Below the pieces are notes generated by a model, which ran no database searches, was not told the DNA's origin, and saw only the letters and a list, made by a program, of their open reading frames with translations. The translations under genes and the position numbers were made by a program. Positions 31,143-39,282 of a DNA stretch of 64,000 bases are shown piece by piece (position 1 is the stretch's first letter; each line of letters opens with the position of its first letter). The DNA comes from Thermoplasmata archaeon (GTDB lineage Archaea; Thermoplasmatota; Thermoplasmata; Lutacidiplasmatales; UBA184), in the NCBI GenBank assembly GCA_021844945.1, contig JAKBSJ010000001.1, positions 310,001-374,000 of the forward strand. Direction: 5' to 3'.

Positions 31143-31151
31143 CTATTTATC
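31143..31151 (+). promoter_or_regulatory. TATA box for the TPR/RING-like gene
   Basis: CTATTTATC lies 28-36 bp before the ATG at 31179. It supports that start over the much longer open frame reaching back to 30723, which is antisense to the HD gene. Confidence 0.55.
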
Positions 31152-31178: not shown

Positions 31179-33731
31179 ATGCCCGGCTCCGACGGTTCCG
31201 ACGCACTCCGCGTACCTCCCGACCGGCGGGTCGAGCTCGCGTTCGGACGGGACCTTCTGCGGCGAGGGTCGGCTGCTCAGGCGCTCGAGCACTTCCGTAA
31301 CGTCCTCAGGACCCACTCCCGGGACCCCGAAGCTCGGCGAGGATTCGCCGAGGCGTCCCTGGAGGTCGGCGCGTTCGACGACGCGCGTCGAACGGTCGAT
31401 GCAATCCTGGCCGAGAGCCCCAAGGACATCGAGATGTGGCGTCTCGCCGCGAGGATCGATCGAGAGACCGGCGATGCCGCAGGGCTTCTCCGTTGCCTTA
31501 CCGAGATCCGTACGCTCGACCCGAACGACCGGCGCGTCGCCCTCGATCTCTACCACCTTTACGATATCCAAGGTGACCGGGAGGCCGCCTACCGAGCGCT
31601 CGGTGAGGCCATCGCGGACGGGGCGAGCCCTTCGCCCGACGAACCGTACGGAAATTTGCTTCTCGCCCGGGCCGAGCTTGCCCATGACCTGGGCCATACC
31701 GAGGAGGCCGAAGCGGGATTCGCCAGGGCCGTGGAGGCCGAGCCGGCGCTCATCCGGCGCGTGGCGCTTTGGAGGGCGAAGAAGGAGTTCGCGGACGGTC
31801 GACCGGATCTCGCACTCGAACAACTTCGCACCGCGTTCGGCTCGGTGGACGTCGCCCAACGCCCTCCCGAGGCGCTTGCGCTCGAGGGCGAGGTACTGCT
31901 CAGCACCGAACGGACGAGCGAGGCACAGTCGCTCTACGATGCATGGCACGCGCACGACCCGACTTCCGCCACCGCCCTCGTTGGGGCCGCTCGGTGCCGG
32001 ATCGAACAGGGGAAACATCCCGAAGCACGGGACCTCCTCCACGAAGGCCTTGCCCATGCCTCCCGGAACGAGTCGCTCGTTCTCTGCCTCGCGGAGGCCG
32101 AGAGCGGGTCGGGAGACCTCTCAGCCGCCGAGCGCGCGGTTCGGGATGGGATCGAACTGTTCACCGAAAGCGAACGACTCCACGTACGGCTCGCCGAGCT
32201 GGCGACCGCCCGAAACGACTGGGAGGGGGCGGACCGGGCGTACGCCCGTGCCGAAGAGCTCAACCCGACGTCGGTCGATATCGCCCTCGGCCGAGCGTTC
32301 GTCGCCGAGAAGCGGAACGATCCGGAGAAGGCACTCGCCGAGTACGCCCGTGCGGCCGAAGTAGCGCCGAACGACGTACGGGTCTGGAACCGGCAGGGCG
32401 CTCTCTTGCTCTCGCTCCGACGACCTTCGCAGGCCGTGACCAGCTTCGAACACGCACTGAGGATCGACCCGGAGTCCGACGTCGCGCGCGACGGCAAGCG
32501 AATCGCCGATCGGGAAGCGCGGAATCGGACCGTGGACGACTTCGCTCTCGCAGCGCTCCGATCCGAGCACGAGCTCGGTCGACCGGTGACGAAGAGCGAT
32601 CTCTTCGTCGGGCTCCACGTGCCCTTCGATCTCTTGGACGGCGTGCTCGCCGCGATGGCCCGCGAAACGAAGGTCGACATCAGCGCTCTCGCTCCGGGCG
32701 ATCTGGAGGTCCTCGAGCGACGCTCGCGCACGCTAGTGGAACGGGCGGCCGAGCAACCCTCCTCGAGTGGGGATGTCCGTTCCCTCACGCTGGTCGATGT
32801 CGCCGCGCTCGCGGATCCGGCCGATGCGCTGAGCGACGTCCAGCGTCTGTTCGCGTACGTGGACGCGGTTCTCAAGATGGACTTACGCCCGGAGAACCTC
32901 CACCTGACCCCGGAGATGGAAGATACCGCTCGCCAGGCCCTTGCGCTACCTCCGGAGGAGCGAAGCCTCTTCGGCATCGTTCGTGCCCTCCACATAGGTG
33001 TGTACCGTGCGCGGATCGTGAAGGCGGTCGAGCGCTCGAGCGCCACGCCGCGCACCCCACTGCCCACGGTCGACCTCGCCGCCCACGTCGGGGAGGGGCC
33101 GGACGCCGATGGGGATGGCTCCCGCTTCTTCTCCTCCGAAAACATTCCGAACGTCCCCTACTCGGATCCTTCTCGGCGCGCCGAAGGTGAGGCCCCGCGC
33201 GCCCGGCCGCGAGGTTGGCCCGCCGGCATCGCCCCGCTGCCGACCTCCCGGTCCCGGGTACGGGATCGCTGTCTCGGCTGCGGAGGGCTCGCATCGTTGC
33301 AACACGACTGCGGGGGGAGCCTCTGCCGCCTGTGTGCGAGCCAGTTCCAGAACTGCCCGAGGTGTCGGGCGCCAATCGGGCCGCTCGACGTTGCTTCCAA
33401 GCGCACGGCGACTTCCCGATCTCCGGCCCGGTCCTCGACGGCGACGCGGCTCGCCGCCCGCGTCACGGCCACGATAGATCGAGCCCCGTCGACCAGCCCG
33501 GTTCCTAGGTCGGCCCCGGCGCGTCCCGCGAAGCCTCCCGCGCCGACCGCTCGCTCCCCGAAACCCGACGTGCCAACGGCGAGCGCCGGTCCGATCAAAG
33601 CCGGGAGCGGCCCCGCGGGTGCCCGATCCACCTCCGCGCCCGCAGCGAAGGCAACCGCCGCGCCGACCCCCGCATCTCCGGCCCCGAAACCGGTACGACG
33701 GGAGAAGGTCGACGACGAACCGCGCTTGTAA
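31179..33731 (+). CDS. Large TPR-repeat protein with C-terminal RING-like zinc finger and disordered tail
   Basis: The 850-aa protein has about twelve TPR-like helical repeats over residues ~15-430 (for example ALEHFRNVLRTHSRDPEAR, EAEAGFARAVEAEP and KALAEYARAAEVAPNDVRVW). A helical middle region (~430-640) follows, then a compact zinc finger at ~695-732. The finger's cysteines are spaced C-x2-C-x8-C-x4-C-x2-C-x6-C-x2-C, with a His two residues before the third Cys. The ending CPRCRAPIG is like IAP-type RING fingers. A Pro/Ala/Thr-rich basic tail closes the protein. It is predicted cytoplasmic and is the first gene of the zinc-ribbon island. Confidence 0.75.
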   Translation: MPGSDGSDALRVPPDRRVELAFGRDLLRRGSAAQALEHFRNVLRTHSRDPEARRGFAEASLEVGAFDDARRTVDAILAESPKDIEMWRLAARIDRETGDAAGLLRCLTEIRTLDPNDRRVALDLYHLYDIQGDREAAYRALGEAIADGASPSPDEPYGNLLLARAELAHDLGHTEEAEAGFARAVEAEPALIRRVALWRAKKEFADGRPDLALEQLRTAFGSVDVAQRPPEALALEGEVLLSTERTSEAQSLYDAWHAHDPTSATALVGAARCRIEQGKHPEARDLLHEGLAHASRNESLVLCLAEAESGSGDLSAAERAVRDGIELFTESERLHVRLAELATARNDWEGADRAYARAEELNPTSVDIALGRAFVAEKRNDPEKALAEYARAAEVAPNDVRVWNRQGALLLSLRRPSQAVTSFEHALRIDPESDVARDGKRIADREARNRTVDDFALAALRSEHELGRPVTKSDLFVGLHVPFDLLDGVLAAMARETKVDISALAPGDLEVLERRSRTLVERAAEQPSSSGDVRSLTLVDVAALADPADALSDVQRLFAYVDAVLKMDLRPENLHLTPEMEDTARQALALPPEERSLFGIVRALHIGVYRARIVKAVERSSATPRTPLPTVDLAAHVGEGPDADGDGSRFFSSENIPNVPYSDPSRRAEGEAPRARPRGWPAGIAPLPTSRSRVRDRCLGCGGLASLQHDCGGSLCRLCASQFQNCPRCRAPIGPLDVASKRTATSRSPARSSTATRLAARVTATIDRAPSTSPVPRSAPARPAKPPAPTARSPKPDVPTASAGPIKAGSGPAGARSTSAPAAKATAAPTPASPAPKPVRREKVDDEPRL

Positions 33732-33794
33732 CCCGCCACCCGGCCGAATCGGCTTATATACGGGTCGGAGTCATAAACGACGGACGGTTCCTTC

Positions 33795-34337
33795 ATGTCC
33801 GGGGCATCTACGGCAGCGGCAGTCAATCGGATCGCCGCGGGTCTGATCACCGGGATTCTGGTAATCGCGGCGGGGATCCTCTTCGTCGGATTCTACCTCC
33901 TTTTCCCGGCGCATGCCCATGCCTTCGCGCTACTCCTCATCGGAATGGTCGCCGTAGTGTTCGCGGCGATCGCCTATCTCTTCGAGTCGTTCTCTCGGCG
34001 GCCCACCTACCAGCGCACCACCGCCTGGGGGTTTTACGCGTTCGGCTTTGCGGTGCTGCTCCTAACCCTCGGCCTGAACCCGACGGGGTACCTCAGCCTC
34101 GCGCAACAGCTCGTGGGGGTCGTCGTCACGCTCCTCTTCCTCGCGGGATCGATCGCGGGGATTGCATGGCGCTACCGCAGCGCGGCAAGCGTCCCTCCTC
34201 GCGAGGCCGGGCGAGCCGCCTGGCGCGCGTCGACGCCGCAGTCGGCGTTCGATTACCCCACGGCCCACTCGCCGACCGCACCGGTGACGCCGCCGGCAAC
34301 TTCGGGGAAGACTCCTCCGTCCGGGGGAGGTGCCTAG
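33795..34337 (+). CDS. Four-helix membrane protein with Pro/Thr-rich tail
   Basis: The 180-aa protein has four hydrophobic segments: GLITGILVIAAGILFVGFYL, AFALLLIGMVAVVFAAIAYL, WGFYAFGFAVLLLTLGL and VGVVVTLLFLAGSIAGIAW. A ~50-residue cytoplasmic tail rich in Pro, Thr and Ser follows. No family is recognised. TATA-like elements precede it (TTATATACG near 33752-33760 and CATAAACG near 33770-33777). It ends exactly where the next gene's ATG begins, so it belongs to the zinc-ribbon operon and may be its membrane anchor. Confidence 0.65.
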   Translation: MSGASTAAAVNRIAAGLITGILVIAAGILFVGFYLLFPAHAHAFALLLIGMVAVVFAAIAYLFESFSRRPTYQRTTAWGFYAFGFAVLLLTLGLNPTGYLSLAQQLVGVVVTLLFLAGSIAGIAWRYRSAASVPPREAGRAAWRASTPQSAFDYPTAHSPTAPVTPPATSGKTPPSGGGA

Positions 34338-35024
34338 ATGGCTACCACTCCACCCGCCGGAACACCCCCACCCATGCCGTCCGTCCCGACGGTGTGTCCG
34401 ACGTGCGGGGCCAAGGTTCCCGCGAACTCGCGCTTCTGCCCTAACTGCGGGGCGTCACTAGGAACGGCGGCGGTAGGCACCTCGACGAACCCTCCGGTGG
34501 ACCTTCGCCAGCGGGTCGACCAGGACCGGGGGACGCTCAAGCGTCTGGAGCTTCTCATTCCCGGATACCACGGCTACCGCCAAGGCGAAGATGTCCGCGC
34601 CGCGGACAGCCTGCTTCGGCGCCAGGTCGCCGACCGGCTGCGCAACGCGCGCTTCACCGCTGAGAATGCGCGTACGGCTCTCACGCAGGCGAACCAGTTC
34701 AACGCGCTCATGGACCTCGCTCCGCTCATCGCCGACCTCATGCGCATCGAGCCAAAAATCCGCAGCGCGGAGCAAGGATATTCCGGAATTGCTGCGGCGA
34801 TCAAGGTCGGCCCGCAGCAGCTCGATAAGCTCTACGAGTACGACTACGGCTTCGCGGTCGCGGCCGATCAGTTCGCCGCGACGATCGAGGGTCTTCCCGC
34901 GCAGGTCACCGGCGGTGACTACGCGCAGGTTTCGCGTACCGTCGCCGCCGCCCGTGCCGAACTCACCCAACTTGATTCCGCGTTCGGGGCGCGAATGCGG
35001 GTCGTCGAGGGAATCCAGGTCTAG
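34338..35024 (+). CDS. Zinc-ribbon protein with helical C-terminal domain
   Basis: The 228-aa protein has one N-terminal double-knuckle zinc ribbon (CPTCGAKVPANSRFCPNCG, residues ~20-38), a short linker, and an all-helical domain (~55-228). The helical part has heptad-like Ala/Leu repeats such as ARTALTQANQFNALMDLAPL. Similar ribbon-plus-helix proteins accompany SPFH proteins in bacterial PspA/YdjGHI-type loci. It is directly downstream of the membrane protein and 16 bp before the SPFH gene. Confidence 0.65.
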   Translation: MATTPPAGTPPPMPSVPTVCPTCGAKVPANSRFCPNCGASLGTAAVGTSTNPPVDLRQRVDQDRGTLKRLELLIPGYHGYRQGEDVRAADSLLRRQVADRLRNARFTAENARTALTQANQFNALMDLAPLIADLMRIEPKIRSAEQGYSGIAAAIKVGPQQLDKLYEYDYGFAVAADQFAATIEGLPAQVTGGDYAQVSRTVAAARAELTQLDSAFGARMRVVEGIQV

Positions 35025-35040
35025 CAGAGGAAGAAAGAGC

Positions 35041-36222
35041 ATGGTCACCAACCAACCGATACCGCAGAAGGGCGGGAGCCTGTTCGGCTCGACTACGATC
35101 AACTGGGAGGATGCCTACAAGGGCCCCAACATCATGTGGCGGGTGCCCCGCAACATCCGTCTCAACGACAACATCGTCGTCCGAGAGGACGAGATCGCGG
35201 TATTCTTCCGGGACGGTAAGGTCCTCGCGTACTTCGACCGGCCGGACCGGTACGCGCTGACGAGCCTCAACGCCCCGATCGTCGGCGGGCTGGTCCAGGC
35301 GCTCTCCGGTGTTCGGCAGGAGGCCGAAGTCTACTACCTCCAGAAACGAATCTTCGATGGCAAGTTCGGTAGCACCGACCCATACGTTTTCCGCGACCCC
35401 GACTTCGGCCTCGTGAGCCTGCGGGTCTACGGAAGTTATCGCTGGCGGCTCGGATCCCCGGACATCTTCATCACGCAGTTCGTCGGCACGTTCGGGGCTG
35501 CCACGAGCGCCGACGTCGAGGGACGCCTTCGGGATCAGATGGTGATCCTGATCTACAACACCCTCGGTAAGATGAAGGACCAGGGCCTGCGGGTGACGGA
35601 TCTCGCCGGCCAGCTCCAGACGATCGAGCAGGCCATCCTCGGCATGGCCCCCCAGCACTTCGGTCCTCTGGGAGTCGAGGTCCAGCAGATCCAGGGCCTC
35701 TCGATCAACCTGCCGGACGAAGTCCAGAAGGCGGTCAACACGCGCTCGACGATGGGGGTGCTGGGGGTGAATTATCTCCAGTACCAGGCAGGTCAGGCGA
35801 TGACCGAGGCCGCTTCCAACACCGGAGGCGCCGCGGGTACGCTCGCCGGTGCCGGCGTCGGCCTCGGGGCCGGTCTCGGCGTGGGCTACGGGATGACCGG
35901 CATGATGGGCGGCATGTACGGGCAGGGGCCGTCGACGCCGTGCCCCAAGTGCGGCGCCCTGATCCCCCCGGGCACGCGGTTCTGCCCGAGCTGCGGCGCT
36001 CCCGTCGGCGGTTCTCCTCCCGGGGCGCCGGGCCGGGCGGAGACGGTCGCTTGTCCCAAGTGCGGCCAGCCCGTTCCCGCCACGTCGAAGTTCTGTCCGA
36101 ACTGCGGCGCCTCCATGGCTCCGCCCTCTCCTCCTCCTGCGCGAACGTGTCCGAAGTGCAATGCCACCGTGACGGGCTCGGGCAAGTTCTGCCCCAACTG
36201 CGGCGCGGCGCTCCCCCCGTAG
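35041..36222 (+). CDS. SPFH/band-7 (YdjI-like) protein with three C-terminal zinc ribbons
   Basis: The 393-aa protein has an N-terminal SPFH domain of the 'virion core/YdjI' type (NIMWRVPRNIRLNDNIVVRE, EIAVFFRDGKVLAYF, FRDPDFGLVSLRVYGSY, about residues 15-215). A Gly-rich segment with GMTGMMGGMYG comes next, then three zinc ribbons each of the form CPKCG...FCP-CG between residues ~300 and 390. Bacterial YdjI works with PspA-type proteins at the stressed membrane. An SD-like GAGGAAG precedes ATG 35041. Confidence 0.8.
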   Translation: MVTNQPIPQKGGSLFGSTTINWEDAYKGPNIMWRVPRNIRLNDNIVVREDEIAVFFRDGKVLAYFDRPDRYALTSLNAPIVGGLVQALSGVRQEAEVYYLQKRIFDGKFGSTDPYVFRDPDFGLVSLRVYGSYRWRLGSPDIFITQFVGTFGAATSADVEGRLRDQMVILIYNTLGKMKDQGLRVTDLAGQLQTIEQAILGMAPQHFGPLGVEVQQIQGLSINLPDEVQKAVNTRSTMGVLGVNYLQYQAGQAMTEAASNTGGAAGTLAGAGVGLGAGLGVGYGMTGMMGGMYGQGPSTPCPKCGALIPPGTRFCPSCGAPVGGSPPGAPGRAETVACPKCGQPVPATSKFCPNCGASMAPPSPPPARTCPKCNATVTGSGKFCPNCGAALPP

Positions 36223-36241
36223 GTCTCGGTCGAGGTCGTCC

Positions 36242-37219
36242 ATGGTCTACTGCATCCAGTGTGGGAACCAGCTTCCGGATGGCGCGAAGTTCTGTTACAA
36301 GTGCGGGGCCGCGATACCGGCGGGCGCTTCGGGTTCCGGCGGAACCGGGCCCGCGCCGTCCGCCCCATCGGCCCCGACGCTGGCGCCCGCCGGCGCTCAA
36401 GAGCTGAAGTGCCCCGCGTGCGGAGCCCCGGTACACCCGGCCTTCGGGGAAGCGGTCGTCACGTGCGACTACTGCGGCAGCTCCGTGACGTTGGGTGGTG
36501 CCGGCTGGAAAGAGATCTCGAAGCATTCGATGCTCCCGCTCAAGCTGGCCGACCCCGCCCAGGCGCTCGAAGCGGTCCGGGCCGCGATGGACACGGGGTT
36601 CCTCCACCGAAAGGACTTCCAGGAGTCGAAGGTCACGGGACAGAAGCTGACCATGGTACCCTATTGGGTCATCCCCGCGACCGCGAGCACGAACTATCAG
36701 TATCAGGACGCTGCGGTCGGCATCGGCTCGACGGTGGCCGCCGTAGGCGCATCGGCGCTCCTCGGTTCCGCACTGAGTGGTGGCAACCGCGGCGGCATGA
36801 TCATGATGCCCATGTTTGCGGGACCGGCCGTCAACCCGACACGCCAGGATACGATCACGGGAAACTACGAGTTCCCGGTCGTCGCGGTCAAGGCTTTGGC
36901 CAACTACCAGCCGAAGAGCTATCAGTTCCCCCTCGCCGAACGGACGCTCTTCGACAAGAAGCAGGTGCCGGCGGGCACTCCGGTCCTGAACGGGGACCTC
37001 ACCGAGGACGCCGCCCGGAACTCCGCCCGCGCCTACGTCACGCAACTCCAATCGAACGAGGCCCACAAGAAGCATCACATGGTGAGCAACTTCAAGACCG
37101 AGGTCGACGTGAGCGAAGGCGAGCTCCTCCACGCCCCGATCTGGGAGTTTGTGCTCGAACGTAAAGGGGAGACCGAGCGGTTCCTGGTCGACGCCCACGC
37201 GGGGCGCGTCGTCGCCTAG
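36242..37219 (+). CDS. Protein with two different zinc ribbons and a Gly-rich putative membrane segment
   Basis: The 325-aa protein starts with a CIQCGNQLPDGAKFCYKCG ribbon, then a Pro/Ala linker, then a second, longer ribbon (CPACGAPVHPAFGEAV followed by CDYCGSSV, ~62-85). A conserved-looking domain with VPYWVIPATASTNYQYQD, a Gly/Ala segment (STVAAVGASALLGSALSGG) and a C-terminal beta-rich part (LLHAPIWEFVLERKGE) follow. It resembles bacterial TFIIB-ribbon proteins found beside SPFH genes, but I cannot name the family. The stop overlaps the AAA+ gene stop (CTAG). Confidence 0.7.
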   Translation: MVYCIQCGNQLPDGAKFCYKCGAAIPAGASGSGGTGPAPSAPSAPTLAPAGAQELKCPACGAPVHPAFGEAVVTCDYCGSSVTLGGAGWKEISKHSMLPLKLADPAQALEAVRAAMDTGFLHRKDFQESKVTGQKLTMVPYWVIPATASTNYQYQDAAVGIGSTVAAVGASALLGSALSGGNRGGMIMMPMFAGPAVNPTRQDTITGNYEFPVVAVKALANYQPKSYQFPLAERTLFDKKQVPAGTPVLNGDLTEDAARNSARAYVTQLQSNEAHKKHHMVSNFKTEVDVSEGELLHAPIWEFVLERKGETERFLVDAHAGRVVA

Positions 37220-38679
37220 ATCCGCTGCGTTTCGATCGATCCGCGACGGCCTTCGCGAGACCGGATCTCGTCTTCGTAGAAACGCCGGGCGAAATCGCCC
37301 TCCGCCCGACCGATCGGGATCTCGGGGGCGTCGGGCTCGGCAAAATAGGTAAGCAGCGCGGCGGCGCTCGCGAGCTTGACCGCGCGCGACTTGAGGCGCG
37401 GCGAGAACCTTGGGTGATCCGAGCGCTCGAGCGCGCGCTGCGACACCCCTCGGAGCGTCCCGTAGAGGGCGCGGTCGAGTTTCACCGGTCGGGGCCGAAA
37501 CCGGCCCGCGACGAGCGGATGACCGAGCTGGATCGCGTGCACGAGCGTGAGGTGGTCCCGGATCCGCGCGGCGAGCGAGAAGTCGAGTTCTCCCAGGTCG
37601 AGGCGTTCGGCGCTTTCCTCGACGGCACGGAACCGCGCTTTCGTCATCGGGTGGAACCGGAGCAGCATGCGGTCCTCGAGGGCCGCGAAGTTGGGATCGG
37701 CGATCGTCGTCCAGTAATCATCCGTCCCCGAGGTGCGGACGTTGTAGTTCACGGAGAAGAACGAGCGAAACGTGTACGGCCCGATCGTGCCGAACGTCGT
37801 CTCCCACTTCACCTCGCGCTGCTCCATCACCAGCTTGAGCGGCTCGACCATTCCGCGGTAACGGAACCAGTCGTTGAACTCGGGTACAATGAAGTTGAAC
37901 GTCCGGCCCGTGTAGAACGAGCCGACCCGAAGGAACTGGGCGGGGGTAATCCCGCCGCAGTACCGGTTCCGGCCCGGGAGCCCGTGAGGAGGCACCGCCT
38001 GGCGCGGGTTCCCTCGGACCATATCGTCGATCGCGAAGGTCTTTCCCGTGCCGGGGGGCCCGAAGAGCGCGAGATGAAATCCCGTGGACCCGGTCGCGCG
38101 ACCGGTCGGGGCGAGGAGCGGCACGTCGGCAAGGGCATACTGCTGCAGCAGGGAGACCAGGGAGTCGAAGTAAAGCTCCTCTCCGAAGAGTCCGCGCAAG
38201 TATTCGGCCAAGACCCGCACGTCGAATGTCCGTCCGAACTCCCGGGTATCCTCGAGGCGCCGATCGAGCACTTCTCGGAGGGTCTGGACGAACTCCGAAT
38301 CCATCGCATGGATCTCGGACGACTCATCCGGTATCGACGGGAGACCCACCGGTTCGACGGCTTCGCTGCGCGCGAGTTCCCCGATGAGCATCGTCCGGAG
38401 CTCCTCGGGATAGGCGACGAGGTAGGTCTTGTCCGTGCGACCCTCGGTAACCTCGGTAAGGAGCCCGCGACGGCGAAGGCGGGCGAGCAGGCGTGCCGGG
38501 TCCTCGAAGATCCGGTCGCGCAAAAGGCGACCTCTCAGCTCGGAGAGGCGGAAGCGCGCGGGCCCGGTCGCGCTCCCGCGGATACGGCGACGCCGGTCGG
38601 CGTCGGCGATAACCTCCGTAAGCCGGCGGGCGACCGCGAGGTCGGCGTCGGAGAGCTCGACCGCAGATTGGTCCGCCAC
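37216..38679 (-). CDS. AAA+ ATPase (MoxR/RavA-like) with N-terminal winged helix
   Basis: The 487-aa protein has a winged-helix-like N-terminus (~40-90), a helical region, and an AAA+ core. Walker A is LFGPPGTGKTFAIDDM (residues ~205-220). The Walker B position reads FNFIVPEFND, so the usual DE pair is not clearly present. A sensor-1-like VNYNVRTSG and an arginine-rich lid (ALEDRMLLRFHPMTKARF) follow. MoxR-type ATPases remodel proteins and often sit near vWA or membrane-stress genes. It faces the zinc-ribbon operon with a 4-bp stop overlap and shares a divergent promoter with the Hjc-like gene. Confidence 0.78.
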   Translation of the reverse strand: MADQSAVELSDADLAVARRLTEVIADADRRRRIRGSATGPARFRLSELRGRLLRDRIFEDPARLLARLRRRGLLTEVTEGRTDKTYLVAYPEELRTMLIGELARSEAVEPVGLPSIPDESSEIHAMDSEFVQTLREVLDRRLEDTREFGRTFDVRVLAEYLRGLFGEELYFDSLVSLLQQYALADVPLLAPTGRATGSTGFHLALFGPPGTGKTFAIDDMVRGNPRQAVPPHGLPGRNRYCGGITPAQFLRVGSFYTGRTFNFIVPEFNDWFRYRGMVEPLKLVMEQREVKWETTFGTIGPYTFRSFFSVNYNVRTSGTDDYWTTIADPNFAALEDRMLLRFHPMTKARFRAVEESAERLDLGELDFSLAARIRDHLTLVHAIQLGHPLVAGRFRPRPVKLDRALYGTLRGVSQRALERSDHPRFSPRLKSRAVKLASAAALLTYFAEPDAPEIPIGRAEGDFARRFYEDEIRSREGRRGSIETQRI

Positions 38680-38703
38680 AGCGCTTCCACGAGACCTGAG
38701 TTG

Positions 38704-38709
38704 TTAATA
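38704..38709. promoter_or_regulatory. Shared TATA box between the AAA+ and Hjc-like genes
   Basis: TTAATA lies 25-30 bp before GTG 38734 (plus strand). Its complement TATTAA lies 25-30 bp before ATG 38679 (minus strand). It is the only AT-rich element in the 54-bp gap. Confidence 0.6.
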
Positions 38710-38733
38710 CCGCGTTCGCGCGCTGACGGAGCC

Positions 38734-39282
38734 GTGCGGCGCGGCGCGTCGGCCTACGAGCGCGAGCTCAAGGACCTCTTCCAGGGGGACCCCGAGAGAA
38801 TACGCGCCTACGGGCGGTCGCTGCCTCCTGCGGAGCGCGTGGAGTTCGAGCGGATCATCGAACGCCCGTTCCTCGTCATCCGCGCCGCAGGGTCCCTCGG
38901 ATTCGACCTCGTCGCACTCCGCCGAGAGTTCGCGTTCCCGCTCGAAGTGAAGGCATCGCAGGAGCCGGTCATCCGTTTCTCCTCCAGTAGCGGGCGGGCC
39001 GCGGATCAGCTCGTGGCCCACCGAGCCGCCGTGCACCGCGTGGGGCTGATGGTCCTCTATGCGTACCGACGCGTGGGCCAGCGATCGGAAGAGCCCTGGC
39101 GCCTTTTCGGCGCCACGCGAACAAGCTCGGGGGGGATGATGGGAGTTCTGGGACGGCGCCTACCCCCGATCGAGACCACCCGCGAAGGGAACGCGATCCT
39201 GCGATGGCAAAACGGCATGCCGCTTTCGCAATTCCTTCAGACGTTCCGGTTCCTTGCGGAACCCCCGGTGACGGTCCCATGA
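38734..39282 (+). CDS. hjc: Hjc-like Holliday junction resolvase/PD-(D/E)XK nuclease
   Basis: The ~182-aa protein shows the Hjc-type core: ASAYERELKDLF at the N-terminus (catalytic Glu), FLVIRAAGSLGFDLVALRRE (Asp) and FPLEVKAS (E-x-K), then a helix and basic strands. Archaeal Hjc cuts four-way junctions in recombination. A ~35-residue insert sits between the first Glu and the core strand, longer than in most Hjc. GTG 38734 fits the TATA spacing. The stop overlaps the thiolase ATG (ATGA). Confidence 0.75.
   Translation: MRRGASAYERELKDLFQGDPERIRAYGRSLPPAERVEFERIIERPFLVIRAAGSLGFDLVALRREFAFPLEVKASQEPVIRFSSSSGRAADQLVAHRAAVHRVGLMVLYAYRRVGQRSEEPWRLFGATRTSSGGMMGVLGRRLPPIETTREGNAILRWQNGMPLSQFLQTFRFLAEPPVTVP

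Follow-up and report, generated by a model that had tools for sequence, protein, structure and literature searches.

Do the zinc-finger, SPFH, TPR and AAA+ genes clustered at 31179-38679 of an archaeal genome fragment form a single membrane-associated machine, or does a smaller unit sit among neighbours that lie outside it? The fragment (the window) is 64,000 nucleotides long, covers positions 310,001 to 374,000 of contig JAKBSJ010000001.1 (assembly GCA_021844945.1), and comes from a member of the Lutacidiplasmatales, class Thermoplasmata, whose close named relatives are likewise Thermoplasmata metagenome-assembled genomes. The initial annotation of the locus proposed one island and named in advance, as its refuting test, an analysis of the gene neighbourhood in related genomes. 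That analysis divides the cluster: the core is TM4-ZR1-SPFH-ZR2 (33795-37219), which survived the comparison, whereas the TPR gene is conserved at family level only and the AAA+ gene proved unlinked.

The gene inventory is as first described, with five same-strand genes and a convergent ATPase, and all six reading frames are open. Four of the genes encode zinc fingers, and the island includes one four-helix membrane protein and one SPFH protein. The features are as follows.

33754..33761, + strand: TATA-like box TTATATAC found in the sequence ~35 bases upstream of the TM4 start; putative promoter of the core operon
33795..34337, + strand: TM4, small four-helix membrane protein of 180 amino acids (hydrophobic segments recognized by eye); proposed membrane anchor of the core
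34338..35024, + strand: ZR1, one zinc ribbon and, at residues 53-228, a conserved helical domain; partner of SPFH in the core
35041..36222, + strand: SPFH protein of YdjI (Band_7_1) type with a Gly-rich linker, three C-terminal zinc ribbons and no transmembrane helix; proposed core scaffold
36242..37219, + strand: ZR2, two zinc ribbons and an alpha/beta domain; core member that varies across lineages
31143-31151: TATA-like box CTATTTATC found in the sequence ahead of the TPR gene
31179..33731, + strand: TPR protein of 850 amino acids with a C-terminal RING-like Cys/His cluster; accessory, family f1 only
37216..38679, - strand: AAA+ ATPase with an N-terminal winged-helix-like part; neighbour, judged to lie outside the system

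Conservation of the ZR1-SPFH pair

The core genes are tightly packed. The ZR1 start abuts the TM4 stop, and the gaps between ZR1 and SPFH and between SPFH and ZR2 are each below 20 bases. The TTATATAC box sits in the gap between the end of the TPR gene and TM4, and a similar box (GATATA, CATATA, TTATA and the like) lies at about the same distance upstream of TM4 in most homologues from the family. Because TPR and TM4 are each preceded by their own TATA-like box, the arrangement suggests two transcription units, one carrying TPR alone and the other TM4-ZR1-SPFH-ZR2 together.

We searched 120 genomes of the class Thermoplasmata separately for the SPFH protein and for the ZR1 helical domain. ZR1 lies directly 5' of a same-strand SPFH gene in 84 of 90 hits, with a median gap of 38 bases; the remaining six comprise two hits at contig edges and four divergent paralogues. 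Eighty-three of the genomes encode both proteins, one SPFH only, two ZR1 only and 34 neither (Fisher p ~2e-26, uncorrected for kinship). At locus level the pair is intact in 54 of 54 Thermoplasmata loci with ZR1. Within the family the SPFH proteins are 70-81% identical and their neighbours recur more than expected by chance, with TM4 homologues preceding ZR1 throughout. 'Candidatus Lutacidiplasma silvani' (Lutacidiplasmatales; L127) has TM4-ZR1-SPFH with an AAA+ gene convergent downstream.

The pair extends well beyond the class. A scan of named genomes, run with a four-row ZR1 alignment after a 12-row alignment proved too diverse, returned 76 loci, and SPFH is directly 3' of ZR1 in all 71 that are not cut by a contig edge; this set shares many genomes with the class set, and the counts of the two are not additive. 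These loci include Methanoperedens/ANME-2, Methanocorpusculum, Methanomicrobium and one thaumarchaeon. ZR1 is present in 106 of 200 genomes of the phylum of the thaumarchaeon and in 16 of 247 of that of Methanocorpusculum; among 40 loci sampled from these two phyla, SPFH follows ZR1 directly in 33 and lies within a few kb in seven. Plasmids searched for ZR1 gave no match, and when 103 proteins flanking the pair in other lineages were scanned against Pfam, no meaningful recurring partner or client gene emerged. An operon centred on ZR1-SPFH is real and widely conserved in archaea.

The initial annotation had remarked on the absence of PspA from the locus, and this absence extends to the whole class sample: none of the 120 genomes has a PspA_IM30 match above the cut-off, in a search that was positive in nine of 14 control genomes. 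A PspA encoded elsewhere in the window's own genome (1.26 Mb) was considered and not found in this search, the assembly being 87% complete. PspA is also missing from pair-bearing genomes of Methanocorpusculum and Methanomicrobium, and two Methanoperedens genomes do have it, at sites beyond the flanks of ~10 kb that were retrieved for ZR1-SPFH. Since the pair occurs in genomes without PspA, it does not depend on that protein.

Proteins of the core operon

The SPFH protein matches Pfam Band_7_1 with E = 7.8e-33 (114.3 bits against a cut-off of 24), a family that also matches in Bacillus subtilis; the standard Band_7 model matches weakly (E = 3.9e-4). It has the YdjI-like architecture of a soluble protein with no transmembrane helix and a C-terminal zinc finger, here three ribbons, and no transmembrane segment is predicted in 152 of 158 homologues. 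This bears out the initial comparison of the SPFH protein, its zinc-ribbon partners and the membrane protein with that portion of bacterial envelope-stress loci to which YdjI belongs. A search for solved relatives of the SPFH domain gave none that is convincing, only short zinc-ribbon or coiled-coil matches. The same genome encodes a second, canonical Band_7 protein (G000:C5:43687-44196, L001; E = 2e-39), and the 12 kb surrounding that gene (L073) yielded no gene of the core module.

ZR1 has no Pfam family. AlphaFold2 models its domain as a helical bundle (predicted local distance difference test score (pLDDT) 84.8, predicted template modelling score 0.82, 50 sequences), in which a P-G...Y-R...D-R-A-D...L-R stretch, a GY pair and a Y...D near residue 115 are invariant. 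Zinc ribbons were initially suggested to mediate assembly; that of ZR1 is dispensable, as most homologues have none. Comparison of the model with solved structures using Foldseek returned nothing significant, the best match being Chlamydia IncA (E = 0.057), and a search for solved relatives found none that is convincing, again with only short zinc-ribbon or coiled-coil matches. We also considered ZR1 as a homologue of PspA or ESCRT-III (ESCRT, endosomal sorting complex required for transport) and rejected this, there being no such entry in the 50 best Foldseek matches. The sole family match is to NCBIfam LIMLP_15305 (NF047596), a Leptospira family likewise of unknown function, to which the helical domain aligns across most of the model. 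At 45 bits (E = 8.6e-12) the match is far below the curated cut-off of 210 bits, so ZR1 is a distant relative of that family and not a member.

Divergent ZR1 paralogues without SPFH occur at L165:5828-6376 and L166:9030-9680, near genes that by eye resemble a proteasome-activating nucleotidase and a helix-turn-helix/zinc-ribbon protein. L168:472-3687 may hold the module in rearranged form: after a distant ZR1-like gene come a gene for a coiled-coil protein and then one whose product joins N-terminal zinc ribbons to an SPFH-like domain.

The third recurring element is a membrane protein. TM4 matches no Pfam family above the cut-off; its homologues and the analogous small membrane proteins of other lineages score three to four transmembrane segments, and in many lineages such a protein is encoded before ZR1 or after SPFH. 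Operons without one usually have a ribbon protein with a transmembrane tail, so that most operons encode one or the other. A zinc-ribbon family of the ZR2 type accompanies the pair in most lineages. Profile comparison relates ZR2 to the ribbon proteins b9s, b9l and z8 of other lineages with probabilities of 95.9-99.8%; the alignments span 177-242 columns for ZR2/b9s, ZR2/z8, b9l/b9s and b9l/z8, and those of ZR2/b9l and b9s/z8 are confined to all or part of the ribbon region. The ZR2 model has moderate confidence (pLDDT 77.8) and a fold search with it gave no significant match. Set against YdjG, a membrane protein that combines a zinc ribbon with a YpeB-like domain, the ZR2 family has the ribbons and, in lineages other than that of the window, transmembrane tails; similarity of ZR2 to PepSY/YpeB is far from significant.

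In family f7 of the class and in some Thermoproteota the pair is joined by P52, a TPR-like protein with a Cys cluster of its own, and by P50, a large zinc-ribbon protein; P52 shows no homology to the TPR protein of the window that is evident by eye. In nine Thermoplasmata loci (L053, L058, L065, L066, L067, L078, L080, L081 and L100) a gene for an HtpX-like M48 membrane metalloprotease lies on the opposite strand, at most ~9 kb and mostly 1-3 kb from ZR1-SPFH.

A proposed membrane scaffold and its alternatives

The most economical reading is that the SPFH protein of the operon forms a scaffold anchored to the membrane, for which ZR1 is the adaptor. We put at roughly an even chance the fuller proposal that TM4, ZR1, SPFH and ZR2 are one functional unit of archaea, related to the YdjGHI membrane scaffold of bacteria and independent of PspA. 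From the gene content and its conservation we infer a scheme in which the SPFH protein, having no transmembrane helix, would oligomerize and be tethered to the membrane on its cytoplasmic side by the small protein of three to four transmembrane segments, or in other lineages by zinc-ribbon proteins with transmembrane tails. ZR1, encoded just before SPFH, would bind the SPFH assembly as a dedicated adaptor, and the ZR2-family proteins would be variable parts that sense or bind clients. The assembly as a whole may organize or protect membrane domains and membrane proteins, in a role of membrane maintenance. In its favour are the position of ZR1 just 5' of SPFH and the co-occurrence of the two across genomes, the YdjI-type SPFH protein with no transmembrane helix, the recurring membrane proteins and related ZR2-type ribbon proteins, the lack of recurrence among genes that flank the core, the behaviour of YdjI in B. 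subtilis, and the HtpX-like protease gene close to the pair in nine loci. Several points weigh against this proposal. The small membrane proteins of different lineages show no clear homology in profile comparison, zinc ribbons are missing from some Thermoproteota SPFH relatives, PspA is absent, and Pfam finds no TPM (YdjH) match among the proteins of the window. Moreover, operon linkage implies a shared function and does not say which.

The broadest alternative is that the whole of 31179-38679 is one membrane quality-control machine whose ATPase remodels the complex. Several genomes of the family do keep the order TPR-TM4-ZR1-SPFH-ZR2-AAA, and the 3' ends of the AAA+ and ZR2 genes share four bases in the window. 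However, the AAA+ gene is convergent with the core and therefore not co-transcribed with it, and its distribution does not follow the core. Of the 120 class genomes 17 have it, all belonging to families f1, f2 and f14; it is on a different contig from the pair in sister family f2 and genus g2 and ~4 kb away in two congeners, and most core-bearing genomes lack it, whereas f14 has it without ZR1 or the rest of the core. Within f1, synteny is just as strong for the HD, thiolase, DUF35-like and HAD genes that surround it. On this distribution we rejected the AAA+ protein as a member of the module, and the remodelling role first suggested for it is not supported. The protein itself has a GPPGTGKT motif and weak similarity to Pfam AAA_22, with no AAA match above the cut-off and no convincing solved relative; beside its gene, at ~38703-39281 (+ strand), lies a reading frame conserved in the family that by eye resembles a nuclease of the Holliday-junction-resolvase type. 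The TPR gene was detected in family f1 alone, with no copy in the g2 loci that were fetched, and is a family-level accessory outside the widespread core. Its product matches TPR models to E = 5e-32 in Pfam and ends in a cluster, C-x2-C...H-x-C-x4-C-x2-C-x6-C-x2-C, whose eight Cys/His residues are conserved in 10 of 10 homologues; the initial label 'RING-like' has this pattern behind it, but Pfam gives no RING match. These TPR proteins terminate in a near-invariant DDEPRL (33711-33728 in the window) after a long low-complexity Pro/Ala-rich tail, and most homologues are ~1500 amino acids long compared with 850 in the window. A single machine spanning the island is accordingly very improbable.

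Two further readings keep the core intact and change what it does. It might act in the cytosol, with the ribbon tails binding RNA or ribosomal components and SPFH providing translation or RNA quality control with a soluble scaffold, as the lack of a transmembrane helix in SPFH and the sequence matches of the tails to ribosomal and RNA-binding zinc ribbons would allow. Yet a multi-spanning protein or a membrane-tailed ribbon protein recurs in the operon, the structure matches are short ribbon matches of low specificity, and ribbon number varies, down to zero in some SPFH relatives; we regard this as improbable, if less so than the single machine. Somewhat better placed, but still unlikely, is that the module is an assembly or turnover factor for a specific client, such as a regulator of the HtpX protease or of a particular membrane complex, and not a general scaffold. 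A precedent exists in SPFH proteins such as HflKC, regulators of a membrane protease, and the nine Thermoplasmata loci with HtpX-like genes fit it. Against it, HtpX is near the pair in a minority only (10 of 172 loci, one of them weak), and no further recurring client gene was found.

A wider proposal, which we hold as possible but doubtful, is that ZR1-SPFH is an ancient archaeal membrane-maintenance system predating the split of Thermoplasmatota, Halobacteriota and Thermoproteota, in which ZR1, an unrecognized helical protein, occupies the position held by PspA next to YdjI in bacteria. Many archaea that have no PspA would use this system as their machinery against membrane stress.

Relation to known systems

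One survey found no Psp domain in over half of the archaeal genomes that it covered (PMC9239133). The ZR1-SPFH operon is a concrete and testable candidate for what some of these archaea use instead, and its ZR1 partner has no described function, Pfam family or matching fold. Relatives occur in the cultured methanogens Methanocorpusculum and Methanomicrobium and, by inference, in Sulfolobales; with relatives in culturable archaea, knockouts and pull-downs are feasible. A literature search returned no description of a ZR1-SPFH operon, an absence that is not proof given that most subscription papers and preprints were outside its reach; the related work that it found concerns bacterial YdjGHI, surveys of Psp systems and archaeal ESCRT loci with SPFH-zinc-ribbon proteins (PMC10936438, PMC11237479, PMC9239133).

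The flotillin and stomatin-NfeD systems have in common with the archaeal operon a membrane scaffold of the SPFH superfamily. Their proteins carry a membrane anchor of their own, whereas the archaeal SPFH protein has no transmembrane helix and the operon no NfeD. Archaeal ESCRT loci of the Meth_adaptin type also hold an SPFH protein with a zinc ribbon (PMC10936438), and so share an SPFH-zinc-ribbon protein in a membrane-related archaeal locus; no Vps4 or ESCRT-III was recognized at the window locus, and the nearby ATPase is unlinked. Some Psp loci include SPFH and zinc-ribbon partners, as here (PMC11237479), but PspA, the member that defines them, is the one missing throughout the class sample. 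The closest system is pspA-ydjGHI of B. subtilis, in which YdjG and YdjH recruit YdjI, itself without a transmembrane helix, and YdjI localizes PspA, its deletion lowering membrane fluidity (PMC8581546). Common to both are an SPFH protein built like YdjI and partners of two sorts, membrane and zinc-ribbon proteins; in contrast to the bacterial operon, the archaeal one has no PspA and no TPM protein and adds ZR1 and multiple zinc ribbons. SPFH-centred membrane scaffolds are already known as a kind, to which the archaeal ZR1-SPFH operon would add a variant.

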